Source: Polychytrium aggregatum (taxonomy: Eukaryota > Chytridiomycota > Chytridiomycetes > Polychytriales). From it: 64,000 nt of DNA. Below are positions 19,074-57,013 of this stretch, in pieces (within the stretch, counting starts at the first letter, position 1; every line of letters starts with the position of its first letter). Position numbers and translations under genes: made by a program. The notes beneath the pieces are model-generated. The model did not search any database, was not told the origin of the DNA, and was given only the letters and a program-made list of their open reading frames with translations. The stretch covers positions 1 to 64,000 of the forward strand of contig NW_026516258.1 of the NCBI RefSeq assembly GCF_025602895.1, in the 5' to 3' direction.

Positions 19074-19324
19074 CCCCCCGTACTACCATAGGGTGTTAAC
19101 CAGTTGATCCGCCGGGCACGCCCAGCCCGATTGAGCTGCTGCTGCGCTCGTGTGTCGCGCATCTGAAACTGTGTCACCGGCAATGATTCATGATGGTGTG
19201 GCGAGGATCCCCGCCTGCTTTTTCTTCGCTCATCGCCCGTTTTCCCCCTCTTCCCTCGCCGGCTCCCACCTTTCGCCATCATCCACATCGGTACTCTCCT
19301 ATCCAGCTGCCTCCCCCGTACAAC

Positions 19325-32786: not shown

Positions 32787-33325
32787 GGTGTAGCCTGGTA
32801 AACACCCATTTGGAGACGATTACAATCCTTGTGATGCAATACGATTGCCTGTGTTACTTTTGTTGCTGATAACAGTTCGTTGAAGCGGCAGGTATGCGAA
32901 GCAATGGGTGGGAAGTGACATTCGTTGGGAGAGGCAGATATCTTCGCTGAGGGCCCTGCTTGATACCCTCGGTCAGCATGTTGCGATGAGGAAACGGATG
33001 CTTGGAGACGAACTGGTTGTGCTCGGTGCAGCAAGCTGGAGCCAGGGTGTCGCAGTCGATGTGGAACTGGATGGAATGGCTGTTACATCTTGCCTTGGCG
33101 AGAATGCAGGACTCGACACGATGTTCGATTCCATGATCGATTTCATGTATGTGGCAGTGTATGTGGCAGTACTTATACAACAACGACTCCAGCCAGCAAA
33201 CCATCGGATCGAGCCAGGCTTGTGTGTGTGTTCGATGGCCAGTGTTTGGTTTGCTTCGACACAAATTCCCTCACTGTCTCCTGTCCAGCTCCGTCACCAC
33301 TTGTCTCCATCCAGTCTCCGTCAAC
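32787..33325. other. Intergenic upstream of Sel1 gene
   Basis: No gene recognised; it probably includes the promoter of the downstream Sel1-repeat gene. Confidence 0.4.
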
Positions 33326-39887: not shown

Positions 39888-42800
39888 ATGGTGCTGACGC
39901 TCATTGCTGTGGCTGGGCTCTTTACGGGCCTGGCCCACCAGTTCCCCGGCAGCCCGTTCTTCGCCGCCGTCCAGATTCCTCTCCGTCTCATCCAGGCTAT
40001 CCAAGGCGTCAAAGTGAATCAGCAATGCTGGACCCTGCTCGCCAACAGGTCTCTCGAGATCTTCCAAGTACTGTCTCAGCACCAGTCCAGCGACCCAAAC
40101 TTTGCCCAGCATATCCACCGCCTCGGCAGTTTCTACCAAAAGATCCACGACTACTACCAGAACGACGTCGAGAAACTCAAGACTTTTGACAAGATCCTCA
40201 AGGGCCAGGCTATCCGTCGGCGGCTTGAGGACTTCAGCAACGAGCTCGACAGCACCTACCAGAGCGTCATGCTCGCCCTCGCCATCGGCACCTCAAACAA
40301 ACTCGATAGGATCGATCTCGCCGGGGCTATCCGCCAGGACGAGGCCAGGGAGGCCCAAATGTTCCAGAGCATTAACGAGCTTCTCGAGCAAAACAACACG
40401 AGCCTCCTTGGCGAATTCGGCATCATGCTTGACAGACAGCATGAATACCAGATCCGAGCCATCACAGTTGCACTTCAGAGTGCCCTCAGCGAAGCTACCC
40501 TCGACCAGATTATTGGAAAGGCCATCAACCCGCTTCTTCAAAACCTCCAGCGCTGCTCCCAAGCATCCAAATCTGTCCAGCCAGAGTCTTGGCGCATTCC
40601 TGCCGAGGCCGTCACTGACTGGTCCTCGACTCCGATCGCCCACGGCGGCTTTGGTCAGGTCTACACAGCCACATACTATGGCTCTCCTGTCGCCGTCAAG
40701 CAGCTTCTTACCAACCATAGCGAGGACGAGATCAAACAGTTCCGTAACGAGATCAACGTGTGGCACAAACTCAACCATCCCAATGTCCTTCCCCTCCTTG
40801 GCGCCTGCGACACCACCGAGAAGCCATTCATGGTCTCTCCATTCATGAAGAACGGCACGCTCCGCAGCTATGTTTCAAGCCCGCACGAGATCCGTCCCCT
40901 CGACGAGAAACTCAAGCTCATGTACCAAGTCGCCTCGGGCATGGCCTATTTGCATGAGATCAATGTCGTTCACGGTGACCTCAAGAGCGACAACGTCTTC
41001 ATCGACTCTGGATACCACGCTGTCCTCGCTGACTTTGGCATGGCCTACACCAAGCGAGCCTCCGTATCCACCAGGATTCTCGACAAAGGCCAAGCGCCGA
41101 GCGGGACGTTCGAGCTGATGGCACCGGAGATGCTCGGCCTGGATGGCAAGGATCCCGTGGGCTCAAACCGAAGGACGGACGTCTATGCCTATGGCATGAC
41201 GCTGTACGAGGTCCTCAACAACGGCAAGGTGTGGATGACAATTGACGGGCAGTTGATGAGCGAGCATGTGATCCAGATCCAACTCAGGCAGCACAAGCGT
41301 CCCAAGCGCACCGATGACCTTCCCGACAATATCTGGAACCTCATTGAGCTATGCTGGAGCCAAGACCCGTACAAGCGCCCCAAGTTCACTGAGATCGTTA
41401 CGCTTCTTCAAAGCTATCGCGATTACTCCGCACCGCCGGCCGTTACCCAAACCGGCTCACTTCGTCCCTCGCTTCGTCCCTCGCTGCAGCAAGAACTGGC
41501 GTCTGCGGCTGTTGCTTCGCCAGTGGCACTGCCAGCTCCGAGCCCCTTTCTCTCGTTCCCCCAGGTGCGAATGCCGGTCCCGGAAACCCAGGCGGTCCCT
41601 TCAGCAAGCCCCATGATGCTGGCACAGAGCCCCATGATCTCCATCGATTCACACGACTCTGCGCCACAAGATCGCCGGTCCATCCCAGCTCAGCGCCATG
41701 CCAGCCTCTTACCAGGCCAGGGCGGGCTCAGCGTCGAATTCCCAGGATTGGACCGCAAGCGCTCCATGACCCTGCCGACCATCCATGTTGACATGTCGCG
41801 CCAACACTCAGAGGTAGACAGGACCTCCATTCAAGACGTGCCCCGTCTGCTTCAGGTCAAGGCCGACAACGGCGATGCCGAGGCTGCTCTCGAGGTGGCC
41901 CAGATCATCGCTACCGACATGCCTGTCGACAGCCCTCGCTGGGACCAAGCCGCCAGGTACTTCCAAAAGAGCGCCGACGCTCTCAACATCGAGGCATGCT
42001 TTGAAGTTGCCTGGCTGCACTTTGTAGGCCTTGGGCTCCACAAGAGCGACCTCGACGGCTTCAATTACTGGAAGGAGGTTGTCCGCCGATCCGCCGATCC
42101 AGCCTTGCGTCATATGTCGCTGTACATGCTGGGCTGGTGCTCCTTTCTTGGCCGTGGTGCACCCTCCAACCGAGCGGTGGCCACGGAGTGCTTCCGGAGC
42201 AGTGCTCAGGACGGATTCGTCCTCGGCGAGCAGGCCCTTGACTTTATGTGGAACCAAGACGTTGACAAGATGCAAACTACCTCAGCTGTCGCCAAGCGCT
42301 TTTTCGAGCGGTGTGCTCTGCTGTCGCCAAGAGATCCGCTTCTTGCCCATCTGACGGCGGCATGCTTGCTCTATGGATTTGGCACTGCCAGGGACCAAAG
42401 TCATGCCCTCCAGATCCTTGAACAGCAGTCGGACCAGGGTTTCCACCCCAGCCAGGCGCTTCTCGGATGCTGCTACTTTTACGGCTTTGGAGTCAACCGA
42501 GACCACCGCACCGCGGCACACTGGTTTGCCCGTGCTGCCGAGCATGACAATCCGTACGCTCAGGTGAACTTGGCTCTGTGTTACGAAAAGGCCTACGGCG
42601 TCCCCCAGAACTTCTCGCAGTCCACCGTCCTCTACAAGCAGGCTGCCGTCCAAGGGAGCGCCGAGGGCCAGCGCAACCTCGGTCACTCGTATTTCTACGG
42701 CCGCGGCACTGCTAGAGACCACGCCAAGGCAGTCGAGTGGTACCGGCGTTCGGCCGACCAAGGCAACGTGGAAGCCTGCGATGACCTCGGCCAGTGCTTC

Positions 42801-43400
42801 AAGAACGGCCTCGGGGTGCAGCAAAACTACGCCAAAGCCATCGAACTGTTCAGCAAGGCCGCCAAGGGCGGAAATGTGGCTTCGCTCTATCACATCGGGC
42901 TCTGCTACTACTATGGCCACGGCGTTGGTCAAAGCTACGAGCTGGCGGCTCAGTTCTTGCAGAACGCCGCCGAAAAGGGCGACAACAATGCCCAGAACAG
43001 CCTGGCGATTTGCTATACCAACGGCCGCGGCATTCCAGTCGACTTGGTCAAGGCCGTCGAGTGGTTCCGCAAGGCGGCCGAGGGCGGCAATCCCGATGCC
43101 ATGCTCTGGATGGGCATCAACTATTCCCGCGGACACGGCGTCATGCAGGACAACAACGAAGCCAAACGGTGGCTCCTCCGTGCCGCCGACAAGGGCAACG
43201 CCAAGGCTCGTGAACTCTACAGCGATTTGATCCAGAAGGAGATCATGGCGAGCGACGGCCGAGGTGCTCGGCAGAACCCACCCCGAGCAGCCCAGCATAA
43301 CAATAACAGGGTCGCCCAAGGCAGCGGTGGCAGGAACGAGGGCAATCCTTTTGCACGACAACCCACTGTCAGCGAGACCCTGCCTCGCCTCCATCCTTAA
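39888..43400 (+). CDS. MLKL-like N-terminal helical domain, kinase and Sel1 repeats
   Basis: The first ATG in the frame, at 39888, gives 1,170 aa. Residues 1-200 form helices beginning MVLTLIAVAGLFTGLAHQFP, with VKVNQQCWTLLANRSLEIF. This has the N-x-x-C-x-x-L-x-x-R pattern of the MLKL-type four-helix N-domain used by fungal and plant relatives to act on membranes. A TKL-like kinase (about 250-515) has a complete catalytic set: GGFGQVYT, VAVKQLL, HGDLKSDNVFI, DFGMAYTK and MAPEM. A Ser/Pro-rich linker leads to about 12 Sel1 repeats (about 655-1115), for example AVEWYRRSADQGNVEACDDL. It is a candidate cell-death or stress kinase with a solenoid arm; the MLKL relation is inferred from pattern, not alignment. 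No introns are visible. Confidence 0.85.
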   Translation: MVLTLIAVAGLFTGLAHQFPGSPFFAAVQIPLRLIQAIQGVKVNQQCWTLLANRSLEIFQVLSQHQSSDPNFAQHIHRLGSFYQKIHDYYQNDVEKLKTFDKILKGQAIRRRLEDFSNELDSTYQSVMLALAIGTSNKLDRIDLAGAIRQDEAREAQMFQSINELLEQNNTSLLGEFGIMLDRQHEYQIRAITVALQSALSEATLDQIIGKAINPLLQNLQRCSQASKSVQPESWRIPAEAVTDWSSTPIAHGGFGQVYTATYYGSPVAVKQLLTNHSEDEIKQFRNEINVWHKLNHPNVLPLLGACDTTEKPFMVSPFMKNGTLRSYVSSPHEIRPLDEKLKLMYQVASGMAYLHEINVVHGDLKSDNVFIDSGYHAVLADFGMAYTKRASVSTRILDKGQAPSGTFELMAPEMLGLDGKDPVGSNRRTDVYAYGMTLYEVLNNGKVWMTIDGQLMSEHVIQIQLRQHKRPKRTDDLPDNIWNLIELCWSQDPYKRPKFTEIVTLLQSYRDYSAPPAVTQTGSLRPSLRPSLQQELASAAVASPVALPAPSPFLSFPQVRMPVPETQAVPSASPMMLAQSPMISIDSHDSAPQDRRSIPAQRHASLLPGQGGLSVEFPGLDRKRSMTLPTIHVDMSRQHSEVDRTSIQDVPRLLQVKADNGDAEAALEVAQIIATDMPVDSPRWDQAARYFQKSADALNIEACFEVAWLHFVGLGLHKSDLDGFNYWKEVVRRSADPALRHMSLYMLGWCSFLGRGAPSNRAVATECFRSSAQDGFVLGEQALDFMWNQDVDKMQTTSAVAKRFFERCALLSPRDPLLAHLTAACLLYGFGTARDQSHALQILEQQSDQGFHPSQALLGCCYFYGFGVNRDHRTAAHWFARAAEHDNPYAQVNLALCYEKAYGVPQNFSQSTVLYKQAAVQGSAEGQRNLGHSYFYGRGTARDHAKAVEWYRRSADQGNVEACDDLGQCFKNGLGVQQNYAKAIELFSKAAKGGNVASLYHIGLCYYYGHGVGQSYELAAQFLQNAAEKGDNNAQNSLAICYTNGRGIPVDLVKAVEWFRKAAEGGNPDAMLWMGINYSRGHGVMQDNNEAKRWLLRAADKGNAKARELYSDLIQKEIMASDGRGARQNPPRAAQHNNNRVAQGSGGRNEGNPFARQPTVSETLPRLHP

Positions 43401-43570
43401 CACCACCTAGCGCCCAACCCGATGATGGGTCCGTGCATGTATGTGCATGATATGGTCAGTACTGGGAATAAAACAAGACATCCTGTCCACTCTGGAACAC
43501 TGCGCGCAGTCCTGGACACACGACATCGGTGTCGATTGCAGTTGAGTTTGATATAAGAACCGATAGGGGG

Positions 43571-43637
43571 ATGCATGGATAACGAATGGATGCATGGATT
43601 ACGAATGGATGCATGGACTACCAATGGATGCGTGGAC
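43571..43637 (+). repeat. 19-bp tandem repeat, about 3.5 units
   Basis: Units of the form ATGCATGGAT-ACGAATGG end beside the left end of the Fanzor composite element. Confidence 0.8.
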
Positions 43638-43639
43638 TA

Positions 43640-43665
43640 CAGGCAATCCAATAAAAAACGGGACA
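43640..43665 (+). repeat. Left TIR of Fanzor composite
   Basis: 26 bases, outer CAGG and inner AACGGGACA, preceded by TA. Confidence 0.85.
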
Positions 43666-43723
43666 CCCGGGTTTTTGATCATTCATCGAATATTTTGTTA
43701 CCCAGTGTTATCGCGCGCTGGCC

Positions 43724-44650
43724 ATGACCATTCGCCACACATCCGACTTTCGCACCGCCGCATTGCGATGCTACGCCCTCATCCATAGCCTGCGTAAGGT
43801 CGCCTCCATATTCAGTGTATCCAAGAGCACCATCCATCGATGGCACCGAGGATGCAAGCTGGATGACCCACCCAGAGTCCCAGCTCGCAGATCCACTTTC
43901 TTTGAGCAGGCATGTCCAGTCATTCGCACCCTGATTGAACAGGACCCGTTCCAGACTGGTCCTGTGTTGCGATGCAAGCTCGAGTCCATCCTCCAGAGGA
44001 AAGTATCACTCTCACTCTGCCACACTGCCATCCACCGAGCAGGTCTCTCACACAAGAGGGCAACACACCTCTACAAGTCCAAGCGACTGGATGAGCGAGT
44101 GGCACAGTTCAGGGACCAGGTCCGCTCCATCGACCCGCGGCGATTCGTTTTTGTCGATGAGACAGGGATCAGACGAACCACCTTTCCGCTCTACGGATAC
44201 TCACCGAAGGGTGCTCCGCTTCGCCAGCGCAATCACATGAAGCACAAGTCTGTCTCGGCTGCATTTGCCATCAACCACTCTGGTGTGCTGCATCGCATGT
44301 ACATCCCCACATCATTCAAGACACACTCGATGGTCGAGTTCTTTGAGCGAGCGACCTTCCCAGACGACTCTGTGGTTGTGATGGACAATGTCAGCATGCA
44401 CAAGACAAGGGCTGTCCTGGACTGCATCGAGCGCCGAGGATGGTCAGTGATCTTCACCCCACCTGCCTCGCCCGACTTCAATCCCATCGAGAACTTCTTT
44501 GGGGTTGAGTCCCCATCAATTTTGGGGTTGTCCCTCCAATCACGCCGCCATTTTCACGCTCAAATCCCTGGCTTGAACCTCTCGGCGATTTTTGAACAGG
44601 GTCACTTCCCCAACCAGCCCGCAACGACGGGCTCCTGCTCTCGGGTATAA
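43724..44650 (+). pseudogene. Tc1/mariner transposase, C-terminus replaced
   Basis: This 308-aa frame has an N-terminal helix-turn-helix (RKVASIFSVSKSTIHRWHRG) and the catalytic residues FVDETGIR, VMDNVSMHK and FNPIENFF; 34 residues separate the second Asp from the Glu, the Tc1-type DD34E spacing. After IENFFG (about 44502) the sequence no longer resembles the family C-terminus, so the last portion is lost or replaced by DNA belonging to the Fanzor side. It would act on the element's TIRs, but its activity is doubtful with this end. Confidence 0.8.
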
Positions 44651-44651
44651 A
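44645..44651 (+). promoter_or_regulatory. Candidate TATA box of Fanzor gene
   Basis: TATAAAT lies 131 bases before the Fanzor ATG, followed by a pyrimidine-rich stretch suitable for initiation. It overlaps the transposase stop. Confidence 0.45.
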
Positions 44652-44781
44652 TGCCACACCTTCGTCCCTGCTGCTTTCTTCCCTCATCTCGCCTTGATCT
44701 GATCATCGCGCTATTGTACGATAAAAAAAAGTCTCTGCTCTGACCAGTACCACTGGCAGGCACCCAGCATCCTCTGCCCCC

Positions 44782-47154
44782 ATGCCTCCGAAGCGTAAGG
44801 GTACCGGTGATGGCCAGCCTCGGCCACCCAGGCCCAAGAAAGCCAAGTCACAGTCGGAGCCTGTCTCTGGTTCGTATTCTGACCCCACGCATGCTTGGTC
44901 GTCTGTTGCTCCGTCGCTCACCACCACTGCTTCTGCAGATCCAATGGATGTCGATCCCACCGAGCCTGGTCCATCTACTTCCTCGAGTACCGGCAAGCGA
45001 TGTCGCCAGTGCGATGGTACCGATCACGAGCGAAGCAACACCAGCAAGTGTCCCAAATACCGGCCCCTCAAGAGTTCTGTCGTCCCTCTCGTGGATGGAA
45101 GGTCATCCGCCCCTCAGTTCAGCTGCTTCAAGCAGACGATGGATGGCTGTTGTCTCAATCCCGCTCTCCGCGACAAGATCCAGGCCACCGTCGAGGCCAT
45201 GACCCAGATCCAGTTCGAGGCATCCAGGCTGCTCAACCTGCACATCCTCCGGTGCATCGAGCAGGATCTTCCCGTCCCCGTCATCTCCAAGTCCACCCCT
45301 GCTTTCGTTCGCCAATGCTTCAAGATTGTCGAGGCCGATGCCCTCTCCCCGACCGGGGACAATGAGAAATACAACGAGCATCTGGTCGATTCCTTTCGCG
45401 ACTACCAGACCACTCGGCACGCAGACCTGCCTCCGGCCCCTCGTCTGCCTGATGGTGCTCACAGTCAGCTTCTCACCCTGGCTGTCAATGCCTATGCCAC
45501 CAACTGCACCACCCACCTCAACCTGGCCTACTGGAGACTCCTTCGCCGCTTCTGCGCTGCCGTCTTCCCAGCCAACAAGCATAAGCACGAAGCCATCGAG
45601 GCCTGTCTCGAGCTCTTCGAGAAACCAGGGCAGACTCCACCCAAGGCCGATCTCGAGTTCCTCTATCCCGAGTTTGGCCACATCCTGGACGAGTTTCGGT
45701 ACAGCAACGACCAGGACCGCTTCCGGGCCCTCCATCGCCTCTCACACCATGTGAGAATCCTCGCCCGAGACAAGATGGTCGACAATGTCCACAAGTGGAT
45801 CGACTGTGACATGCCCGCCCTCCGAGTCACCGAGCTGCAGCGCCAGGCCAAGCTGGACGAGCTCACTACCCAAGGCATTCCCTCCGACGACAAGAGGTTC
45901 ACCAACGCCAAGTCTGAGCTCGGCACCACCAAGGCCAAGATCAACAAGCTGGCCGCCAGGATCAACTGGGCACCCAAGCAGCTCGCCGTCGACACTCCTC
46001 CGGCCGTGTGCACGATAGTTCCTCTATGCACTGCAAGGGCCAAGTATGTCAAGATTGACACGGTCACTCTCTGGGAACTCCTTGGTCCAAAGAAGCGCCT
46101 TGGACTCACCAGGGACAAGCTCAAGGAACAAGGTGATGACGGCATCAACAACCAGGATCGTCTCTGGCGCAGTTGCTTCAAGCTGCGTAGTTCCCTCTTC
46201 CAAGAGCGGGACGTGAACAAGAAGCTGTTCAACTACGAGATCAGCACCGATGGCATTGGATGCACCATCGGTCTCGTCAAGTTTGTGCCTCGAACCGATC
46301 ACACCGAGACCATCGAGCCTCCTCCGACTGCCGAGCAGCGCATCCAGGCCCACATCGGCGACCCAAACCCCAACCGCACCACTTGGATTGGCATCGATCC
46401 TGGAGTCGGCTCCATCTTCACGGCGGTCATCCAAGCACCGGGCCACCAAGACGAGGTGGTCTCATTCTCGAATGGCCACTACCAGCACATGTGTGGCCAT
46501 ACGTCCAACACCAAGTGGCACAACACCATGAAGTATCGACTCAGCATCGAGACCTGGATGTCGACCACTCCCTCGCCCAAGGTGTCGTCCTCGGAGGCTT
46601 TCAAGGTCCATCTCACCCATGTCCTGCGACCGGAGCTGCGAGTGCAGCTCGACTTCCACCTTGGCAAGAAGGCCCGTCACCATCGCTTCACGGGCCACAA
46701 GAGGCGCCAAGTGGCCGTCGACAGGATGTGCAAGGTCGTCCTGAAGCACGCCCCGATACGGACCGATGTGGTGATCGCCTTTGGCAATGCGTCATGGCGA
46801 CAGGGCAAGGGCTATGCATCCAGCCCTCGGAGGCAGCGGTTTGCTCGGTACTTTGAGCAATTCGAGCACCACCGACGCCGTCCCAATCACCATCATGGAA
46901 GCGTCAAGGTGGCCTCGACGAACGAGTTCAACACCTCGCAAGTGTGCTCCAAGTGCCTGGAGCCCTCTCGGCTGGGGGATCTGAAAGCGCCCAGTGTTGC
47001 GAATTCCCACTTTGTCAGGAGCTGCAAGAATCCCAGCTGCCGGACAGTGTGGAATCGCGACGTCAATGCGGCGCGCAACATGATCACAGTATGCAGGTCG
47101 ATTGTGGAGATCGGAGAGCGACCGGCGGTCTTCACTCGGAGGCTGCCAAAGTGA
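44782..47154 (+). CDS. Fanzor RNA-guided nuclease (eukaryotic TnpB relative), intact
   Basis: 790 aa, starting MPPKRKGTG with a basic, nuclear-localisation-like start (RPKKAK). A zinc knuckle sits at Cys74, Cys77, His82 and Cys90 (CX2CX4HX7C). A long helical recognition region follows, with a linker (about 330-400). The RuvC core has Asp539 in WIGIDPGVGS. The usual TnpB RuvC-II Glu position reads AFGNASW (about 667) without Glu; instead Glu715 lies in TNEFNTSQVCSKC, as in other Fanzors. The last catalytic Asp760 lies in NRDVNAARNM. The zinc ribbon uses the CSKC pair and CKNPSC. Fanzors use a guide RNA from the 3' end of their locus to cut DNA. Here the gene sits in a mariner-type element and its right TIR begins 72 bases after the stop. 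Confidence 0.93.
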   Translation: MPPKRKGTGDGQPRPPRPKKAKSQSEPVSGSYSDPTHAWSSVAPSLTTTASADPMDVDPTEPGPSTSSSTGKRCRQCDGTDHERSNTSKCPKYRPLKSSVVPLVDGRSSAPQFSCFKQTMDGCCLNPALRDKIQATVEAMTQIQFEASRLLNLHILRCIEQDLPVPVISKSTPAFVRQCFKIVEADALSPTGDNEKYNEHLVDSFRDYQTTRHADLPPAPRLPDGAHSQLLTLAVNAYATNCTTHLNLAYWRLLRRFCAAVFPANKHKHEAIEACLELFEKPGQTPPKADLEFLYPEFGHILDEFRYSNDQDRFRALHRLSHHVRILARDKMVDNVHKWIDCDMPALRVTELQRQAKLDELTTQGIPSDDKRFTNAKSELGTTKAKINKLAARINWAPKQLAVDTPPAVCTIVPLCTARAKYVKIDTVTLWELLGPKKRLGLTRDKLKEQGDDGINNQDRLWRSCFKLRSSLFQERDVNKKLFNYEISTDGIGCTIGLVKFVPRTDHTETIEPPPTAEQRIQAHIGDPNPNRTTWIGIDPGVGSIFTAVIQAPGHQDEVVSFSNGHYQHMCGHTSNTKWHNTMKYRLSIETWMSTTPSPKVSSSEAFKVHLTHVLRPELRVQLDFHLGKKARHHRFTGHKRRQVAVDRMCKVVLKHAPIRTDVVIAFGNASWRQGKGYASSPRRQRFARYFEQFEHHRRRPNHHHGSVKVASTNEFNTSQVCSKCLEPSRLGDLKAPSVANSHFVRSCKNPSCRTVWNRDVNAARNMITVCRSIVEIGERPAVFTRRLPK

Positions 47155-47252
47155 TCTGTTTTATTTCTTGTGGCTTTGCTTGACGCAAGCATAGCACATA
47201 CTACCTGTTCATGGAAACGGCTATATTGTCCCGTTTTTTTCTGAATAAAGTG
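47060..47252 (+). ncRNA. Candidate Fanzor guide-RNA region
   Basis: Fanzor guide RNAs derive from the 3' end of the ORF through the right end. This region is the part retained, with changes, in the 345-bp derivative at 47419-47763 and less clearly at 57191-57450. The exact RNA ends cannot be read from sequence. Confidence 0.45.
47227..47252 (+). repeat. Right TIR of Fanzor composite
   Basis: 26 bases TGTCCCG...AAAGTG followed by TA; it contains AATAAA, which could also serve as poly(A) signal of the Fanzor transcript. Confidence 0.85.
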
Positions 47253-47418
47253 TAAGAATGCATGTATATTCAAGATCTGGACCAAAGTAACCGCTGGCCC
47301 TGACAACTGGTCCTGCTTCGGTTTTGGACCGTTTTTGACAGAGCTACACTGGCCCGCGAGAGGAATAGGAAAGAGGTTGTGGGAAGACATCGTGGTGGCA
47401 GAAACCTTGGTCTGTATA

Positions 47419-47763
47419 CACTTAATCCAGGGGGGAAATGGGACACCACACCCGCTTCCATGAACATGTTGTGTGTAATGGCATGTGCCTAGCAGAGCCA
47501 TAAGGAATATATCAGATCACCTCCGAGCAATGACCACCAGCCGCTCTCCGGTCTCCACAATCGACCTGCACGCTGGTCTCGGAGCGCCAGCGGTGAATAG
47601 TGCTCTTGGACACGTTGAATATGGAGGCAACATCCCTCAGGCTACGGATGAGGGCGTAGCATCATAGCGCAGAATGGCCATGGCCAGCACGATGGTATTT
47701 GGCAACAAATTATTCGGTCAATGATCAAAGACCAAGGCGTCCCGTGTTTTATTGGATTGACTG
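47419..47763 (-). mobile_element. 345-bp non-autonomous derivative of the Fanzor composite
   Basis: It is in inverted orientation relative to the composite. The transposase-side TIR (47738-47763) matches the composite's left TIR at about 23 of 26 bases, and the Fanzor-side TIR (47419-47445) carries one extra G. Both ends are flanked by TA (47417-47418; 47764-47765). Internally, about 47590-47680 matches the 5' part of the transposase gene (CTCCATATTCAACGTGTCC) and about 47520-47577 matches the last codons of the Fanzor (GCAGGTCGATTGTGGAGA). Everything between is deleted. It lies 30 bases from the stop of the LRR gene. Confidence 0.85.
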
Positions 47764-47792
47764 TAATAGGGGGCTGATGGGATTGAGAGGCT

Positions 47793-49460
47793 TCAGTTCG
47801 GCGGTGGATCTGCAAGAACTTTGTAGGCGTGACGAGTGGTTGTCCTGGTGACGAGCGTCGACTTTGAGTGATCAAAGCGGCGATGAGAGCGTCTGCGGAG
47901 CACAATGAATGCTCCGATGGCGAGGGCTGCTATCACCAGGGCAACTACAACCCACAGCAGTGGAGATGACACCGCAAAGAAGGGCGGTGCGGCGCTCGAG
48001 GAGCACTGCAGGCCACCAAGGTTCCAGATGTTGACATTGGCGGGAGAGCACTGAGGCAGCGAGATGGTTCCGGTGAGGTTGTTGCCAGAGAGATCGCTGT
48101 GTCGACAAGGCCAAAGCCGATGTGCAGGAAGTAGGATTCAAGATGCAGAATGCAGCAGTGTCAGCGGATATCATCACTATCGAGCTGCGGCAAGCGGCGC
48201 AAGCAGTGCAAGTGTGGGAGCCTCACATCGATGTCAGGTTCGTCACGGACGACAGGTCGAGGGCAACGCTTCCCGCGAGGTTGTTCGAGTCAAGTTGCCT
48301 GGGAATCGAAGCATGGTATTGTCAGCCGCCATACGACAAGGCAATGGAGCGGCTGCCAGAGTCCTTCGGCAGCGAACAGGCGAGCGGAATGATTCCTGAC
48401 CAACACGCAAAGCAGACAGAGTCAACGACGGAACTCACAGAGTCTGAAGTTTCGCCAGCGACGACAGCGTTGCAGGTGGTGTCCCAGTCAATTGATTCCC
48501 AGTGAGGACGCTGGTGTGATTCGACACAACGAGATTCGTCAGAAGGAGCGATGGGCAAATCATCGAACGACAGCTGGGCGGATGGAAGCCGACATTCTGT
48601 CGGCTGGCCTGAGCGCCACAAAGAACTGGGAATAAGCTGCCTCGGTGTTTGGGGGTCGCTCCTGTCACCATATTACATGGATTGCAGGCTGGTGATGTTG
48701 CCTATCGAATCGGGAATCTCTCCAGAGAGCAGATTGTACTGCAGCGAGCTGTGGAGAGCAGAGGCGCATGTTGGTCAGTACAGAGCTGACCAAAGCGCCC
48801 GTCGGCAGCGATGACACCCAACCACAGCGACGATCGATATCCACGGCGCCGATCGATAGCTCCGCCGATAATCAATCGCCTCGACGTACATCTCGCGCAG
48901 GTTAGGCAGCAGTCCAATCTCCCGTGGTAGCGAGCCGTTGATGTTGTTGTTGTGGAGGTCGCTGGTCGACCGCAACAGATGTCCGTCGACAGGGGCAAGG
49001 GTATGGATCACAGTCCGAGAAGTGAGCAGAGGATGTTCAATACGAGCCAAAGTCCGCGCAAGCATCCAGTCAGCGGGCATGGTCGCCCGATGGATGGCGA
49101 TACCCGGTTCGCCCCGTCAACCATAGTTCACTTGGATTGGCCACATGTCCGACAACAGCAGGCCACAGCATTATCACCCACAGGACTCGGAGTTCGGTCA
49201 GGGTTGCTAGTTGCGTCGGAATAGAGCCGTTTATGCTTCGGCCGGATACGACGCTGCAAAGACGGAGGCAAAGGGTCAGCGACGACAGCAAAGCCAGCAG
49301 GCGGCCCGAGAGGAGGTGGATGGCGGCGATCGAGAACCTACATCATCAAGACTCGCCCGGCCGAGTCGCAGTCGACCATGACGGACGACGGGTCGCAGCA
49401 GGGAATCGACGGCAGCCAGGCCTGGATGACGGAGCAATCTGGAGAGGTGGCGTTGCTCAT
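47793..49460 (-). CDS. LRR single-pass membrane protein, one repeat per exon
   Basis: Seven frame-consistent exons were traced: 49460-49342, 49253-49182, 48961-48890, 48748-48677, 48510-48439, 48298-48227 and 48096-47793. The first has a Cys-capped N-terminal LRR module (DCSVIQAWLPSIPCCD). The next five are each exactly 72 nt, same phase, and each encodes one 24-residue plant-type LRR (for example INGSIPTQLATLTELRVL). The last exon has one more LRR, a Cys cap, a transmembrane helix (LLWVVVALVIAALAIGAFIV) followed by RRRSHRR, and a 40-residue tail. The topology suggests an extracellular sensor with no kinase. A signal-peptide exon probably lies upstream (49461-50014) but I could not place it. 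Confidence 0.87.
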
Positions 49461-50014
49461 CTCGATTGTTGGAAGAGGTCAGCGCAGAGCAGAGCCTGGG
49501 TACGACACAGGATATGGAGTTGGACGAGAGACGGATGGGTGCGTCCGTGGATGAGGTCGAGAATGTTCAGCCCGGAGCTGGACAGATCGAGAGCGGGACA
49601 GATCGAGGGCAGCTTGGGGACAGATCAGGACAGACGATGCGGGAAGCTTGGCGAGCCGACCGGGAACATACACCGGACGAACCGCCACCGAGGGGCCGTG
49701 CAGGCGCTGCCGAGCAGCATGAGATGGGGCACTGCAAACAGTGCACGACGGACCCAAACGACCAGGAGCCGCAAAGTGTATTGAGATCAAAAGCAAGGGC
49801 GACGCAGACGGAGGAATGGGCTGGGCCGGGCCGCAAGCCCGAGCGAGGTGAGTTCGAGCAGCTCGCATGTCCCTGCCGCAGCGATCGCCGAGCGGATGCA
49901 GTGCAGAGACGGTGTGGCCCAAGCCATGATTAGCGCCACGACGACGGCAGATCGAAGCAGCACAACCACGGCAAGGACGGCGGCAATATGGGGAAGATCG
50001 ACGATCGAGGCAAC
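49461..50014. other. Region expected to hold the LRR gene 5' end
   Basis: On the minus strand a hydrophobic stretch near 49970-49850 (AVVVALIMAWATPSLHC) could be a signal sequence, but no convincing splice donor links it to 49460. Confidence 0.35.
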
Positions 50015-51042
50015 TCAAGCCTGGACCCGCTTGGACGACATCTGGGGACGGTGGACGATGCCGACCTTGAGCTTGTAGGCGCGCTGCTTGCGGAGCCAGG
50101 CTCGATAGTCAGCCACCGACTTGACGTTCTCGCCATAAAAGTCCGGCATCGGGTTCTGCAGCGAGGTATTCTGGGTGGTTGGGCGGTGCTTGGCGATGCG
50201 GTCAAAGAATTCTCGTTCGCGCTGGCAAGCGGATGGGAATAGATCGAGCAAGTGTCAGTACCGGCAGCCTCTAACAGATCGGTTTTGGATGGACGACGCT
50301 GCTCCGGCAGGGCAGATGCGAAGGGCGCTAACTCACCAGATCCATACCCTTCAGGAGCTGTCTGTTGGTCGAGGTTGAGATCGAGGCAGATGAGATGTCA
50401 GATGTCAGATGCATGCAGTGTTGGAAAGTGCATCCGCGGCGGCGAGACGACAGCGGTCGCTCCCCCGTCATCGTGGTGGGCAAGTCCATGATTGCAGAGC
50501 CAATGCACTGATCAAGATGGCTCTATCGTCGCCATGCCGATGCCATGCCGATGCCACCGCCAAAAGCAGGGCGACACCAGGGCACTTCTTGCGAGAAACG
50601 CCTACTTGTTGGTAAAGAGTCTCCAGATCGATCCGCCGCTGAGGAGAGAGAGGCCGATGCCGCATCCCGTGGCAACAAAGATGCCGGCGCTGTAGGTCAC
50701 CATGGGATCCATGTCCATGATCATCTTGGTGGGATCGTAGTCGGCGATGGCAAAGACGTAGATCGATGCGGCAAAGAAGGTGACGGAACCACCTACGGCG
50801 GCGGCGGCGATTTCGGCATGGGACTTTGACTTTCGGAGCTCAAAGTACTGCTTCCAGGGGATGGTGGTCTGCGAAGACGGCCTCGCAGCCGACTGGGCTG
50901 AGCGGCTTGCTGAGCTCGAGAAGGACAGGGCCAACGTGGGCGCCCGGGAGCGCAGGGCCTTGGCTTTGAGTTGGAGGAGGGGATTGCAGCTCGAGACGGC
51001 CGGCGCAAACGACCGGCAGCGGAAAAACAGCTGGGACATCAT
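50015..51042 (-). CDS. PAM17: Pam17, TIM23 import motor subunit
   Basis: Three exons: 51042-50606, 50361-50337 (25 nt) and 50221-50015, with GT-AG introns and matching phases. Pam17 is an inner mitochondrial membrane protein that helps the presequence translocase motor of the TIM23 complex. The N-terminus is Arg/Ser-rich like a mitochondrial presequence. The core shows the family features: WKQYFELRKSK, two membrane segments (VTFFAASIYVFAIADYDPTK and a Gly-rich one ending SGGSIWRL) and the C-terminal signature NPMPDFYGENVKSVADYRAW followed by LRKQ. Length is about 220 aa, normal for the family. The tiny middle exon encodes KQLLKGMDL, which joins the membrane part to the REREFF segment. Confidence 0.9.
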
Positions 51043-51597
51043 GGTGAGCGGCTGGATGAATCGAGTTTGATCGATGTCGAGATGGATCTGTGTCGAGATG
51101 GATCAGTGTCGAGATGGATCACACTATCAATTTTTTCCGGCCCGCTCGCGGCTGCTCATCTCGGTCACCTGAAAGTCACGTTGTATGTGGCGCAGCAAAA
51201 GTTGGAATCCGGCCATGGTCGGTTGACGGCATTTGGTATCACCTTGAGCCGATTGACGGTGGTGGTGGGCAATTGGTGTGGAGGAATGACCAATTGTATC
51301 ATTGTTGGAAGCTCCACTCCGATTGCGGACAAGAACCACCACCATCTGAATCTCTCTGGTTGGAAACCTAGTCAAGCGTGGCTGTGTGTCAGCGAGATGA
51401 CATGATCGTTTGGCTATCAGGCAAGACTCACCTTGACAAGATGTCTTCCCACGACTGATTGAGCGAGCGATGCGTTTCTGGATCTGAATCAAGGACGCCA
51501 CTGCGCAGTATCTCTGCCAGCCCAAAATGCGCTGGTTTTGAGGAGATTCTTTCTTCCCCAAGGGCAGAACCAGCCATCGCTGCTATTTTCTCGCCAG
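51043..51597. other. Intergenic between PAM17 and Fanzor 2
   Basis: It contains a short tandem repeat at about 51070-51122 (TGTCGAGATGGATC units) and no left TIR that I can recognise for the downstream Fanzor element. Confidence 0.5.
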
Positions 51598-54195
51598 ATG
51601 GCTCCCAAGAGAAAGACACCCCCCGATCCCGACCCGGGATCACCCAATGACTCTCCTGTGGCCAAGAAGCCCACTATCAAATCGTGTCCCTCCTGTGGCC
51701 TGGCCAACCATGTTAGGCCCTTCACCAAGAAGTGCACAGCCAGAATCGACAGCAGCCCTGCCTCGGTCGCTGAAATGGTCAGCCAAGCACCCAAGGTCCC
51801 TGTATGTGCCACGTGCAAGCAAGAGGGCCATGCCAGAAGCAACACCCCAAAGTGCCGTTTCTATAAGCCACTCTGGAGCTCTACCTTGCCTGGCTGTGGC
51901 CCAAACGAGCAAGTCAAGGCCGACTACTCCACCGTCAAGTGCACCCTCGACGCCATCATCAAGAACGATGCCTTGCACGACAAGATCGAGGAGACTGTCC
52001 GAGCCATGACACACGTGCAGTACGAAGCATCTCGTCTCCTGGAGCTGCATCTCAGGCGGTGCTTGGACGAGGGCATCACCCTCCCCACCGTGTCATCAAC
52101 TACACCTTCGTTTGTTCGAAAGTGCTTCAATATGGTGCAGACAGGAACAGTGGGTGTCAGGACGAACACCCCGGAAGATGACAGGCACCTCCTCGACACA
52201 TATGAGCTGTATCGACGTGCATGGGGAAAGTCGTGTATCCTGCCTCCTGTGTCCCTCCCAAAGGGTACTGGCTCACAGGTCCTTGGTTTGGCTGTCAAGA
52301 CCTATGCAGTCAACTGTGAGACCCACGTTCTCGATCGGTATTGGTCTCTCCTCCGTCGATTCTGCAACCTGGCCCTGATTGCTCCCAAGGATGTGAAACG
52401 GCACACACACGTCGACGATTGTATGAAGCTGATGGAGAATCCCCTCTCCAAGACACTCCTCGTTGATCTGAGAAAATCCTTCGCCCACCATGCCGACCAG
52501 TTGTATGAGTTTCGGTACGAAAGCCACCAGGACCTGTACAAAGTCGTACCAATTCTGGCCAGTGAGGTCTCTCGCCTGACCCACCTGAAGGAGGCCCTCT
52601 TCATGGTGGTCTTTCAGAAGATGATCATTCCCAGGCTCGTGAGGGATACCGATGTTCTGAAAGGAGAGCGTGAGCGACTGAACGAGGAGATGTGTCAACC
52701 CATCCACCACATCGGGGCTGACAGACTCAAAGATCTCCAGACCCAGCGTGATGAGGTGGACAAGCAGATCACCATCAACACGAAGCGGATCAAGCGACTG
52801 ACCGATCGACTTGCCCAGACGAAGAAGCGACACAATGTCCCTCGAGCACAGTGCACCTTGGTCCCGCTCTGCGATGCCCGAGCCAAGTATGTCAAGCTCG
52901 ACACCACAGCACTGTACCAGATCCTTGGATAGCAGACTGGCACTGGTCTCAAGTGGGACGACCTGAAGACCAAGGTCAATGGCACCACAAAGCAAGAGAC
53001 CTTCTGGCAGACCAACTTCAAGCTGGATCCGAGACTCTTTGGTGCCAGGGAGAAGGGGAAGCAGCTCTTTGGCTGCGAGATCACCACCGATGGGGTCGGG
53101 TGCTCGATCACCACACTCAGATACAAGATCCTGAAGAAGGACCCTGATGCCAAACCAGAATCCGTGGACAAGGACGACAAGACACCCAAGCTCACTCCCG
53201 AGCAGAAGATCCAGACCAGGGTCGGTCCCATTGACGACTCTCGGATCACATGGATCGGGATCGACCCTGGTGTGGGATCGATCTTCACCGCTGTCATTCG
53301 GGCACCCGGTCAACCATCCATCCAGGAGCAAGACGGTGTCAAGGTGACCAAGGCACAGCGTGCAAACGAGAAGATCGTGTCATTCTCCAACAAGGAGTAC
53401 CAGCATCGATGTGGCACCAGCCAGGCGACCAGGTGGATCCAGAGCACCCACAAGATCCTTGGTCTGCAGAAATGGATGAGCACCACACCAAGTCCCAAGA
53501 TCCCTGGAGTGCCTTCTTTCTTGCGATACATCTACCATGTGTTCACTGGAGACATGCTGGAGAAACAGCTGTACTTCAGCCTGACCCGGCGACGGCGATT
53601 CAAGCGACTCGATCTCCACAGCAAGCGACAGCGCACCGTCCACGAGATGTGCAAGCAAGTCATCGACCAGGCACCAAAGGAAACCGAGGTGGTGATTGTC
53701 TTTGGGAATGCCTCGTGGAAGCAAGGGAAGGGATACGCATCCAGTCCCAGGAGACTCAGGTTTGCCAAGTATTTCGAGCAGTTCCACCATCACCAGAGAC
53801 GACCACCAGACCAATCCGTCTCCAAGATCCATGTGTGCTCGGTGAACGAGTTCAACACATCCCAGGTGTGCTCACATTGCCGGGAAGCCAAGCGACTCGA
53901 GAAGGTCGAATATCTTGATATCGAGAAACCACACTTTGTCCGGAGCTGTGCAAGCTGCCATACGCTGTGGGATCGAGACATCAATGCAGCCAGGAACATG
54001 ATCTCGGTATGCCAGTCGATCATCGCCACAGGAGATCGACCGGGTGTATTCAAGACTGTGCTTCCCAAACCAACCAAAACCACTCGATTGCCAACGAAGT
54101 CAGGAGTGCAATGCCATGGCCTACCCGCTGGGCCTACAAGTCAGTCAGCGGGCTTCAGAAGCCAGAAAGTGACTGTCCCGTTTCTTTCTGGATAG
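51598..54195 (+). pseudogene. Second Fanzor nuclease with a single in-frame TAG
   Basis: The frame from ATG 51598 (MAPKRKTPPDPDPG) would encode 865 aa but has one TAG at codon 445 (52930-52932), with homologous sequence on both sides. Two N-terminal zinc knuckles of the CX2CX4HX7C type are visible (CPSCGLANH and CATCKQEGH), one more than in the first Fanzor. The nuclease core has Asp556 (WIGIDPGVGS), FGNASW at the old Glu position, Glu751 (VNEFNTSQVC) and Asp794 (WDRDINAARNM), with the ribbon CSHC and CASC. It is related to but clearly diverged from the Fanzor at 44782. Its right TIR (54174-54199, then TA) overlaps the end of the frame; no transposase and no left TIR are seen. If the TAG is a base error the protein is intact. 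Confidence 0.88.
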
Positions 54196-54199
54196 ACTG
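54174..54199 (+). repeat. Right TIR of second Fanzor element
   Basis: 26 bases: starts TGTCCCGTTT, ends ATAGACTG, followed by TA. Its reverse complement matches the left TIR of the composite element at about 21 of 26 positions. Confidence 0.8.
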
Positions 54200-54331
54200 T
54201 AAGTATCTTGCACTGTTCCTTGAGTATTTCTACAGTGGATGCCGGGTCGCCCATATTCTGGGCAGTCCACTTCGGGGTTGCCATCCCTCTTGGGATGGTC
54301 GATGGGAGGTGTTTGACTCCCTTGTGCAAAG

Positions 54332-54381
54332 TGTGTGTGTGTGTGCAAAGTGTGTGTGTGTGTGCAAAGTGTGTGTGTGTG
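54332..54381 (+). repeat. Tandem (GCAAAGTGTGTGTGTG) repeat, three units
   Basis: Three units of GT-rich sequence with GCAAA spacers in the region between Fanzor 2 and the Serinc gene. The rest of 54202-54757 shows no gene and probably includes the Serinc promoter. Confidence 0.8.
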
Positions 54382-54757
54382 ACGGCGAGAGGCTTCTCGC
54401 CTTCCCTCGGGGGTCTCTCGCCAGAGACTGCTCTTCTCGCCGACCGAGGTGGCTCCGAGAGCGCGTTTTTTCGTTCTCGCTCATTTTATTAACAAGAAAT
54501 TTTTTCATAGTGTCAGTGTCGAGTCCAATCTGATCGGCAACGGAGCGAGGCAGTCACGTGTGTAGTTCACGTGGCAGTGCAGTCACGTGGTCAACGGCCA
54601 AGGCCGAAACTTCGATCCGGTGGCGGACCTTTGGATTGCTTTCAAGCCCTGTCCTCGTCCAACACCCTCGTCGCTCGACTCATCCACGGCCCACCGTAGA
54701 CCGTCGCTCCGGCCCGCACCCCTCGCCCGAACTCTCCATTTCGCTGCCTCCTCTGCC

Positions 54758-57013
54758 ATGGGCGGCCTATTATCCTGCTTCGCCACCGAGCTGGTATGTC
54801 CCGTCGGCGGCTCATCGCCCACAGCTGTTGCGTCAGCGCAGGTCGCAATTCATCTGCTCGCGCAGGCGGCTGTATCCACCATACATTGCAGCGGACTCAG
54901 CGTTTCTGTTCTTCCCAGGCATGCTGTTTCGGCAAGGCAGCTTGCAAGTGCTGCTTCAGCATCTTTGGAGCCAGAAGGTCGGCCAGACTTGATTCTCAGA
55001 CGCTGCTGCATCGGTCCATCGAGAGGGGCGTTGCGGGTGCTTTCTCATCCCGCCGCATGCCAAGACCGCCGTTACTGATCCCACCGAACCCCTGTTCTCT
55101 GCGGTGGCCATCCGCTCCCGCCCCGGTTCCTCGGTCCCTTTCGGCTCTCCAGCTCCATTGCCACCCGCCTGGGCTATGCCAGCATGTTCTTGCTCACCGC
55201 TCTGACCTCCTGGATCCTGCTCACCGACTGGGCCGGCAAGAAGCTCGAGTCGATATCGTACGGCTATCTGAAGCTCAACTGCCCAGAGGGCTCATGCTAC
55301 GGCGTGCTCGCCGTGTATCGGATCTGCTTCGCAACGTCGCTCTTCCACCTGGCCATGTCCGCGCTGCTCTATCGGGTCCAGTCCTCTCGGGACTGGCGCG
55401 CCTCCTTCCAGAATGGCTTTTGGGGCATCAAGCTGCTCGCCTGGCTCGGCCTCGCCATCCTCTCCTTCTTCATCCCAAACCCGTTCTTTATCGGCTGGGC
55501 CTCGGTCGTCGACATGCCGGGCGCCGTCATCTTCATCCTGATCCAGATCATTCTGCTCATTGACTTTGCATATGTCTTTAGCGAGTATTTGCTTGGTGAG
55601 TGCAATGGATCCCTCGCTGTGTCTGCATTGCCCGGTCGTTGTATGCGACCCTTCATTCCCAATGCGAGGATATATCGGACGATTGTTGAGCGTGGCACTC
55701 ATCCATGGTCGCCATTTGCGTCTGTCTGCTGCGTCACCATGGCTAACACAAACTGCCATGCGGCACCCCTGTCTCTCAGAGCAATGGGAGGCATCCGAGA
55801 GCAAGTGGTGGCTCCTGCTGCTCATCGGCATCACCGGCTCGGCATTCATCGGCACCATCGCCCTGACCGTGATCATGATGCTCTGGTTCGGCAAGGGTGG
55901 CTGCGGCCTCAACCAGTTCTTCATCATCTTCAACCTCATTCTCTCTATGATCGCCACGGGTGTGTCGATCCTGCCCTCGGTGCAGGACGTCAACCCGCGC
56001 TCCGGCCTGGCCCAGGCTGCCATGGTCACCATCTATGCCACCTATCTCATCGGCAGCGCACTTTCGAGTGAGCCGCTTGAAGAGTTCAACGGCCAGTGCA
56101 GCCCCAGCAACGAGCAGATGACCAACTCGACGGTCTTCCTGGGCACCATCTTCACCTTCCTCGCTTTGTGCTATTCAACCTCCGCCGCTGCGACCCAGAA
56201 CATGGCCGGTGGCAGCGCTGACGACGGCTCGACTCTCCCCCTCGTCGGCGGCCGCGACCATCTCTCCGATGCCGTCCAGGCTGGTGCCATCTCTTCCCGG
56301 GAGCTCCATACCTCTGACGATGATGACGACGACGATGGCTGTGACGACGAACGCGACGGAGTCCAGGTAGGCGTCGAAACGGTGTACTATGCCGTCAGCG
56401 CACCGAGGCACAGGCGGTCGCCCTGACTCCTTGTCGCGACCAAGCCCATCGATCCCGGACCGCCCGGTCAATGGGGGATGTGACTGCAGCGCCAGCTAAC
56501 CCAATCTCCTTGTGCAGTACAACTATTCGCTCTTCCACATCGTCTTTTTCTTGGGTGCTTGCTATCTGGCAATGCTCTTGACCAACGTAAGCACGCTTCC
56601 GCACCCGTCCTGCATTCCCCTCCAAAGTGCTCTACATCACGGCCGATGCTGAGCAGAATCGGCGCAGTGGCTATTTCCCTCAACACACCATCCACTTGCA
56701 ATGCTAACACTCACGAGCGACGCTCTATCGCTCCTTATTTGGCCGCCACTGGTACACCTGCAGTGGAACTCGGTCAATTACACCAACAAGGACGAGATTG
56801 CCACCGTCGGCAAGAGCATGGTATCCGTCTGGATGAAGGTCATCTCGAGTTGGCTGGTGCTGCTGCTTTACATGTGAGTCGTCGCCGCACGCCTGTTGCA
56901 ATCGCCGTTGCGATCTATCCCGCTTCTGTCTCGCTGCGGAGTGGCTCACCAATGACCTTCTTTGCAGCTGGACTTTGGTCGCTCCGATGGTCCTGACGGA
57001 TCGGGATTTCTAG
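54758..57013 (+). CDS. TMS1: Serinc/Tms1 family membrane protein
   Basis: Seven exons with consistent phases: 54758-54793, 54919-54977, 55153-55595, 55780-56366, 56518-56586, 56764-56873 and 56968-57013. Family hallmarks in order: MGGLLSCFATEL, a Cys cluster (ACCFGKAACKCC), SSIATRLGYA, the NCPEGSCYGVLAVYRI signature, FFIPNPFFIGW, FAYVFSEYLLGEQWEAS and a C-terminal membrane pair ending in WTLVAPMVLTDRDF. About ten transmembrane helices. Serinc proteins sit in endomembranes or plasma membrane; animal members are linked to phospholipid scrambling and yeast Tms1 is vacuolar. A Ser/Asp-rich cytoplasmic loop (SDDDDDDDG) is in exon 4. Intact. Confidence 0.93.

Follow-up and report, generated by a model that had tools for sequence, protein, structure and literature searches.

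The stretch of DNA analysed here (the window) comprises the first 64,000 nucleotides of contig NW_026516258.1 of Polychytrium aggregatum (assembly GCF_025602895.1). We confirm that a Tc1/mariner-type transposon carrying a DD34E transposase and a Fanzor nuclease lies at 43640–47252. End alignment places its left terminal inverted repeat (TIR), which starts CAGGCAATCC, at 43640–43665 on the forward strand and its right TIR, which ends AATAAAGTG, at 47227–47252 on the reverse strand. The initial annotation described matching 26-base ends; inverted repeats are indeed present, but they agree at only 19 of 26 positions (13 of the inner 14, the mismatches lying mostly in the outer 12 bases) and are therefore imperfect. 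As a control in the window, none of 8,922 random TA-bounded pairs lying 2–5 kb apart reached a score of 19. The TA proposed on both sides is found at 43638–43639 and 47253–47254; both were recognised as target-site duplications by copy comparison, and the duplication is read from the empty site of another copy, L019 (see below).

The first gene is a Tc1/IS630-type transposase ORF (43724–44650, forward strand), identified by its match to Pfam DDE_3 (E 6.6e-23), its motifs and copy comparison. In the numbering of a full-length copy its catalytic triad is D145, D221 and E256, with 34 residues between D221 and E256, and the full-length copy scores 125.3 bits against transpos_IS630 (cut-off 100). 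The D34E spacing, the TA duplication and the TIRs, imperfect as they are, place the element in the Tc1/mariner (IS630) group. The window copy is not the intact unit it had been taken for: it measures 3617 bp compared with 3742 bp in full-length copies, and the loss behind the glutamate (125 bp net, junction at 44507–44520, forward strand) removes the transposase C-terminus. The ORF follows the family register to about 44507, and the remainder is family DNA past the deletion, read in another register. The window copy keeps the three catalytic motifs. Among 24 copies sampled by their left end, the 310-aa transposase frame is present in 5 and absent in 19, and most copies must therefore move in trans, if they are mobile.

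The second gene, Fz-A (44782–47154, forward strand), is a stop-free ORF of 790 aa identified by Pfam, motif and profile comparisons; it is a full-length Fanzor in the same orientation as the transposase, as originally proposed. It matches PF07282, the C-terminal nuclease domain of TnpB/Cas12f, with E 7e-9 (36.2 bits, cut-off 26.3), and reaches only 25 bits against NCBIfam guided_TnpB (cut-off 100). The marks published for Fanzors include a DPG in RuvC1 and a glutamate six residues before the first zinc-finger cysteine (PMC10711439), as well as the pattern D-X(125,275)-[TS][TS]XX-[C4]-X(5,50)-RD (PMC3627910). Fz-A carries DPG at 539 and E715-FNTSQV-C722, and it fits the pattern with 178 residues from D to TS, four cysteines (the second pair being CX4C) and then RD. 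Both sets of motifs, together with the C-terminal nuclease domain, identify it as a Fanzor, and its carrier, a typical eukaryotic transposon with DDE transposase, TIRs and TA and not an IS607 element, would assign it to Fanzor1. An AlphaFold model of Fz-A (mean pLDDT 46.6) was of no use.

Both genes are constrained at the protein level. For the Fanzor, pN/pS is 0.28 in frame versus 1.36 and 1.49 in the other two frames (20 copies, chosen by protein score, a choice that favours a low value), and 48 of 57 scored Fanzor copies are free of internal stops. The transposase gives 0.31 in the same 20 copies; for the 24 left-end-sampled copies, corrected rates yield 0.305.

The family is abundant in the genome. 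When up to three mismatches are allowed, a 30-mer from the Fanzor active site matches 248 times, and no fewer than 100 of these matches are exact; exact left ends number 214 genome-wide. The search for copies with the same two ends, suggested in the initial annotation, was successful, and the ends do not derive from unrelated elements: all 21 copies first examined, at 20 distinct sites, share both ends and sequence of both genes, all 21 are flanked by TA at both ends, and transposase deletions are frequent among them. In a sample of 30 loci drawn by the left end alone, 24 continue from transposase into Fanzor. These comparisons support the view that the transposase and the Fanzor are held in one TIR- and TA-bounded unit. 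The scored copies are 94–97% identical to the window copy, which makes the family young-looking. A peptide-pattern search of viral contigs found no relative.

Four of the 30 left-end loci are short derivatives (ghosts) that retain the last 168–448 nt; ghost copies keep the 3' end, the expected place of the predicted guide RNA. Two others (L047, L050) can be followed for only about 200 nt, with the right end absent from the fetched stretch, and copies lacking the 3' end may therefore exist. Sequence comparison also revealed an older, internally deleted copy of the family next to the window element, inverted at 47419–47763 (reverse strand), with TA at 47417–47418 and 47764–47765 and a T before its left TA.

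The insertion sites carry a one-sided mark. Of the 214 exact left ends, 204 have a T directly before the left TA; these counts include allelic duplicates (the 10 others collapse to 7 distinct flanks; the 204 were not collapsed). By comparison, T precedes only 11.7% of the window's TA dinucleotides. The 10 exceptions include the window copy, which reads CTA at the predicted TAM position (43637–43639, forward strand; last left-flank base plus TA), and the ghost loci L060, L062 and L065. Of 20 distinct copies chosen blind to the left base, 19 carry T at the left and 4 carry A directly behind the right TA, a position that shows no bias. A left-flank table with T in 41 of 41 cases was not used, as a TTA pattern had supplied 25 of its flanks and it omitted both the window copy and the non-TTA loci.

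The comparison of empty sites, also proposed at the outset, could be made for one insertion. Copy L019 sits in another copy of a repeat whose end, which has at least 40 matches across the genome, lies at 54430–54515 (forward strand), the empty site being TA 54490–54491. This repeat and six further copies that we fetched all carry a single TA preceded by T (7/7), indicating that TA is duplicated on insertion and that the T belongs to the target. The idea that the T is part of the element was rejected for L019, the only insertion with readable empty sites. For 15 further insertions, no junction-spanning match to an empty site was present among the 40 listed of 180 candidates. At four of the 15 (L009, L014, L016, L020) a second contig holds both flanks 1.1–3.7 kb apart, so that these sites look occupied there too, which fits homing and old insertion alike. 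From the resemblance of the one-sided mark to the Spu-1 TAM, we predict a (W)TTA TAM with the right flank as guide.

The predicted guide-RNA (omega/reRNA) scaffold would span 47170–47254 (forward strand), including the right TIR and TA, a placement derived from folds and from published accounts of Fanzor1 RNAs (PMC10432273, PMC10711439). The predicted guide would follow in the right flank at 47255–47270 (forward strand), its length assumed from the 14–15 nt reported for SpuFz1 (PMC10432273). The conserved RNA structure anticipated at the 3' end did not emerge: the fold of the Fz-A 3' end has no statistical support against shuffles (z −0.89 and −1.00), and two-sided changes occur at 0 of 30 predicted pairs among 10 sequences of the family. 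The corresponding values are −0.65 and −2.08 for a second Fanzor, Fz-B, and −0.59 for the left end as a control, and the old inverted copy folds worse than its shuffles (z +0.76). The right arms (28 nt) of Fz-A and Fz-B differ at 4 positions, three of which, on a reading by hand, are paired in both separately predicted folds with the pairing kept, an observation that is only suggestive. A search of 43000–55000 against Rfam returned one match, to SCARNA2, far under its cut-off.

Comparison with Fz-A identified Fz-B at 51598–54072 (forward strand); the two proteins align at 41% identity over most of the Fz-B length, and Fz-B carries an in-frame TAG at 52933–52935. Motif comparison recognises a remnant of a transposase C-terminus (DVFPRLIERAMRFW) upstream of it at 51440–51481 (forward strand), and a Tc1-like right end (GTCCCGTTTCTTTCTGGATAGACTG-TA) lies at 54175–54201 (forward strand). 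Near-identical sequence follows this end in many copies, and the end appears to be frozen inside a larger repeat. A CACTA-type label for this repeat, considered for its CACTAT-like ends, was dropped: only a single copy offered a possible left end, and the alignment of the two ends did not bear it out.

The family is one unit with common ends, present in hundreds of copies, which duplicates TA and has a left T without a matching preference at the right. We interpret it, with a probability of about 0.62, as a cut-and-paste transposon of the Tc1/mariner (IS630) type whose second gene encodes a Fanzor1-type nuclease and which restores itself at (W)TTA sites. In this model the 3' end (end of the Fanzor gene, 3' UTR, right TIR and TA) would be transcribed as the guide RNA, and the flank beyond the right TA would serve as its guide. 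The nuclease target would be (W)TTA followed by the guide sequence, which is the site as it stands before the element inserts or once it has been excised; a copy in place would escape cutting because its right end sets GTA, not TTA, before the guide sequence. After excision by the transposase, or in a homologue without the element, the Fanzor would cleave the vacant site, and repair on a template that contains the element would restore it. Insertions at non-TTA sites could not be maintained by such cutting and would tend to be lost, leaving the TTA mark behind. Internally deleted ghosts, which retain the 3' end, could be mobilised and maintained in trans. A further-reaching version, which we hold tentatively and at somewhat less than even odds, is that the nuclease and not the transposase shapes the landscape: the Fanzor would filter Tc1 insertions made at any TA, mostly the TTA-oriented ones would persist, and a self-restoring homing element would result from which the ghosts profit in trans. 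In the sister family, Fz-B, the same module would be trapped in a larger repeat, so that in about half of its copies the guide would no longer vary with the site and would be copied along with the repeat.

Tc1/mariner target preferences are generally roughly symmetric about TA, which would speak against the transposase alone setting the one-sided left T. The left T could nevertheless also come from a transposase target preference, the Fanzor being a passenger in target choice and the transposase complex reading one base past TA at the left end only. Such an asymmetric complex is conceivable since the outer 12 bases account for most of the difference between the two ends, and the ghosts seen carry both ends, so that these data do not tell the effects of the two enzymes apart. 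The comparable purifying selection on both genes argues against a passenger role, as does the one-sided mark of Spu-1, which agrees with a measured TAM (PMC10432273), and we consider this explanation unlikely, though a serious one.

It is far less probable that the Fanzor serves another end, such as cutting rival elements or chromosomal sites, and merely rides on the transposon. Several unrelated transposon types are reported to carry Fanzor1 (PMC3627910), and the predicted L019 guide is a near-match to a repeat that has at least 40 matches across the genome; but the predicted guide of each copy is its own flank, and 20 different flanks in 21 copies fit targeting of the own site better than a fixed rival. 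That the remains of a Tc1 element and an independent Fanzor element simply lie side by side has a negligible probability. Two elements do adjoin in the window, as the inverted copy at 47419–47763 demonstrates, but the same two ends around both genes in 21 copies at 20 different sites, and the passage from left end into Fanzor in 24 of 30 left-end-sampled loci, rule out a chance pairing.

The described TnpB systems of IS200/IS605 and IS607 resemble the window family in placing a RuvC/zinc-finger nuclease next to a transposase, and their guide comes from the right flank with the TAM at the left, as predicted here (PMC10711439, in part). The window family differs from them by its DDE cut-and-paste transposase, TA duplication, eukaryotic host, DPG and shifted glutamate. 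The combination of a Fanzor with a mariner transposase is already known: Bao and Jurka (2013, PMC3627910) described the mariner elements PGv-1 and PUl-1, where likewise Fanzor1 and a mariner-type transposase share a single TIR element flanked by TA duplications. PGv-1 was described as single-copy, with a GIY-YIG nuclease as third gene (PMC3627910); by this description, the window family is set apart from PGv-1, having hundreds of copies, two genes, ghosts and the left T mark.

Another close parallel is Spu-1 of Spizellomyces punctatus, reported with inverted repeats, TA, conserved bases before the left end and ghosts that keep the RNA end (Saito 2023, PMC10432273). SpuFz1 and Fz-A share C-terminal Fanzor1 similarity, with a profile E of 0.0025 over 422–789 and a single-sequence E of 0.57. 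Spu-1 comprises 42 loci with Fz and 134 ghosts; its mark is a conserved CA upstream of the left inverted repeat, with a measured SpuFz1 TAM of CATA (PMC10432273), whereas the window family shows T-TA. In the account of Saito et al., no transposase was found between the Spu-1 inverted repeats, unlike in the window family, and the role of Fanzor for its transposon is given as unknown (PMC10432273). The window family joins a transposase, a nuclease, a predicted guide-RNA end and ghosts in one young-looking family, and the idea that Fanzor cutting decides which insertions are retained is therefore testable here, by means of the predicted TAM, the predicted guide of each copy, the natural exceptions (10/214) and the complete and broken versions of the genes.

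The window carries a Fanzor, Fz-A (44782-47154), inside a 3.6-kb Tc1/mariner element at 43640-47252 that has TA at either side and encodes a DDE_3 transposase and the 790-aa Fanzor in the same orientation, as the initial annotation had read it. The matching 26-base ends claimed there are present and imperfect, with 19 of 26 bases identical; 8,922 random TA-bounded pairs from the same window included no match as good. The DD34E assignment holds: the triad motifs are kept in the window copy, and a full-length transposase copy, which reaches 125.3 bits with the IS630 transposase model (cut-off 100), has 34 residues between the second D and the E. The unit is not intact as had been stated, since the window copy lacks 125 bp relative to full-length copies (about 3742 bp), corresponding to the transposase C-terminus beyond the catalytic glutamate.

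On its left side, a 19-bp tandem repeat (GGATGCATGGATTACGAAT, 43569-43640) stops at the element's left TA; the element was therefore probably inserted into one repeat unit, and the units carry TTA or CTA at the equivalent position. The right side is adjoined by an older, inverted, internally deleted copy of the same element (47419-47763), which likewise lies between TA dinucleotides and has a T ahead of the left one. Elsewhere the window holds LINE-like reverse transcriptase frames (1294-4023, 9303-12977 and 23093-24325, one with an endonuclease domain) and Sel1-repeat proteins (19190-21325, 33149-34894 and 39888-43400), two of the three with a protein kinase domain too.

We searched the assembly (64.7 Mb, 418 contigs), eukaryotic by its gene content, for related copies. 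In the protein search, 57 Fanzor copies were scored from 1277 first-look candidates, namely the window's Fanzor and 56 others at 94-97% identity, and 48 of the 57 have no internal stop. A 30-mer across the catalytic DPG site has 248 genomic matches with up to 3 mismatches, at least 100 of them exact, and exact left ends number 214; all such figures contain allelic duplicates, as some flanks are present on two contigs.

In a first set of 21 copies, comprising the window copy and the 20 copies that ranked next in Fanzor score (one site being common to two), the same two ends enclose both gene regions in every case. Transposase deletions are common in this set, and 18 of the 20 distinct copies retain a full Fanzor frame. 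To avoid selection by Fanzor, we took as a second sample the first 30 loci matching the left-end pattern: left end, transposase and Fanzor are continuous in 24, confirming one unit rather than two, while four are short derivatives (312, 313, 384 and 1114 bp). The remaining two stop at about 200 nt, and a right end is absent from the stretch read; judging by these broken-off loci, copies that lack a right end may exist. A 310-aa transposase frame is found in 5 of the 24 continuous copies. The same internal transposase deletions recur at identical places in several copies, indicating that elements whose transposase is broken have increased in number, presumably by moving in trans.

At two sites the flanks recur on other contigs. 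At one (L013, contig C23), the left flank also matches C81 and C346 and the right flank matches C334, each match adjoining another Fz-A-family copy, a pattern of either recombination between copies or assembly chimeras. At the other (L014; C375 and C93), one contig has a 3.7-kb copy between the flanks, which on the second are about 1.1 kb apart; this may reflect, at a single site, the kind of internal deletion that interrupted gap repair would be expected to leave.

Both genes show reduced amino acid change. The Fanzor pN/pS is 0.28 across 20 copies, a set chosen by protein score and thus biased towards low pN, and two wrong frames of the same alignment give 1.36 and 1.49. The first 75 Fanzor codons give 0.51 in the 24 left-end-sampled copies. 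The transposase value is 0.31, or 0.305 with corrected rates in those 24 copies.

The TA duplication that had been proposed can be read at one insertion, L019, which lies in a repeat end that has at least 40 further matches, one inside the window. All seven unoccupied versions of this site (the window's and six others) show the junction TTAACAAG with a single TA preceded by T, so that for L019 the TA was duplicated and the T is target-derived. For 15 further insertions queried, the matches listed included no readable empty site. Across the family, T precedes the left TA at 204 of 214 exact left ends; the 10 others, which include three ghosts (short internally deleted copies), represent 7 distinct left flanks. 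Among 20 distinct copies chosen regardless of this base, 19 have the T, the sole exception being the window copy with C, and only 4 have A after the right TA. TA dinucleotides in the window are preceded by T in 11.7%, the rarest of the four bases. At position -2, A or T stands in 33 left flanks out of 41; a TTA pattern that leaves -2 free supplied 25 of these 41.

These data are most likely explained by a cut-and-paste transposon whose nuclease restores it at its own sites. The transposon part follows from the anatomy; we infer the TAM (the Fanzor recognition motif), guide and restoration parts. The Fanzor would cut the element's own empty site, the break would be repaired from an occupied template and the element thereby restored, while GTG-TA at its right end would protect the inserted copy from cutting. 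The main rival is that the T mark reflects a preference that the transposase itself has on one side only. Were the target preference symmetric, both sides would be marked, whereas the mark here is one-sided. For such a mark, a precedent is Spu-1 of Spizellomyces, reported to have two conserved bases, CA, upstream of the left inverted repeat, in agreement with the measured SpuFz1 TAM, CATA (PMC10432273). By the same logic, the predicted Fz-A TAM should be (W)TTA, with W being A or T.

The RNA of Fanzor1 elements is described as being read at the 3' end, crossing the right inverted repeat and the TSD and continuing into flanking sequence (PMC10432273, PMC10711439). In the fold predicted for the Fz-A 3' end, the right TIR and the T of the TSD base-pair with sequence further upstream. 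The conserved RNA structure envisaged at this end did not emerge: the fold energy is unremarkable (z -0.89 and -1.00; +0.76 for the old inverted copy, -0.65 and -2.08 for the second family, Fz-B), ten sequences contain no two-sided changes at predicted pairs, and Rfam gave no match above any cut-off. All four short derivatives among the 30 left-end loci retain the last 168-448 nt, consistent with a needed RNA end, but transposition needs the right end too, and the two broken-off loci suggest that some copies may lack it.

Fz-B (51598-54072, one in-frame TAG) is 41% identical to Fz-A across most of its length and 47% in the C-terminal half. Its family is large as well, with 109 matches scored among 1420 candidates and with the right end occurring exactly 125 times. 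The one recognised transposase remnant upstream of Fz-B is 14 residues of C-terminus. Near-identical sequence (up to 3 mismatches) follows the TA of its Tc1-like right end in 101 places, and at 51 of the 100 listed among the 125 exact right ends; in roughly half of the listed copies the right end lies within a larger repeat that has been amplified (51598-54201 in the window). Of five further copies, L075 and L077 have the common downstream sequence, and L011, L076 and L078 have differing flanks. The shared sequence is also present at L019, and 34 of 40 listed repeat ends of the L019-site type sit 150-420 nt downstream of an Fz-B right end. It therefore seems that an Fz-B element, after insertion, became trapped in a larger repeat and was amplified with it, freezing its would-be guide. 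The frozen stretch varies among copies and so shows no sign of conservation as a guide.

The short derivatives of the Fz-A element resemble the ghost loci of Spu-1. The pairing of Fanzor1 with a mariner transposase is already known, having been reported in 2013 for PGv-1 and PUl-1 (PMC3627910). Among the open-access titles listed for Fanzor transposons, none points to the Fz-A family, which is unusually suited to testing Fanzor's role.
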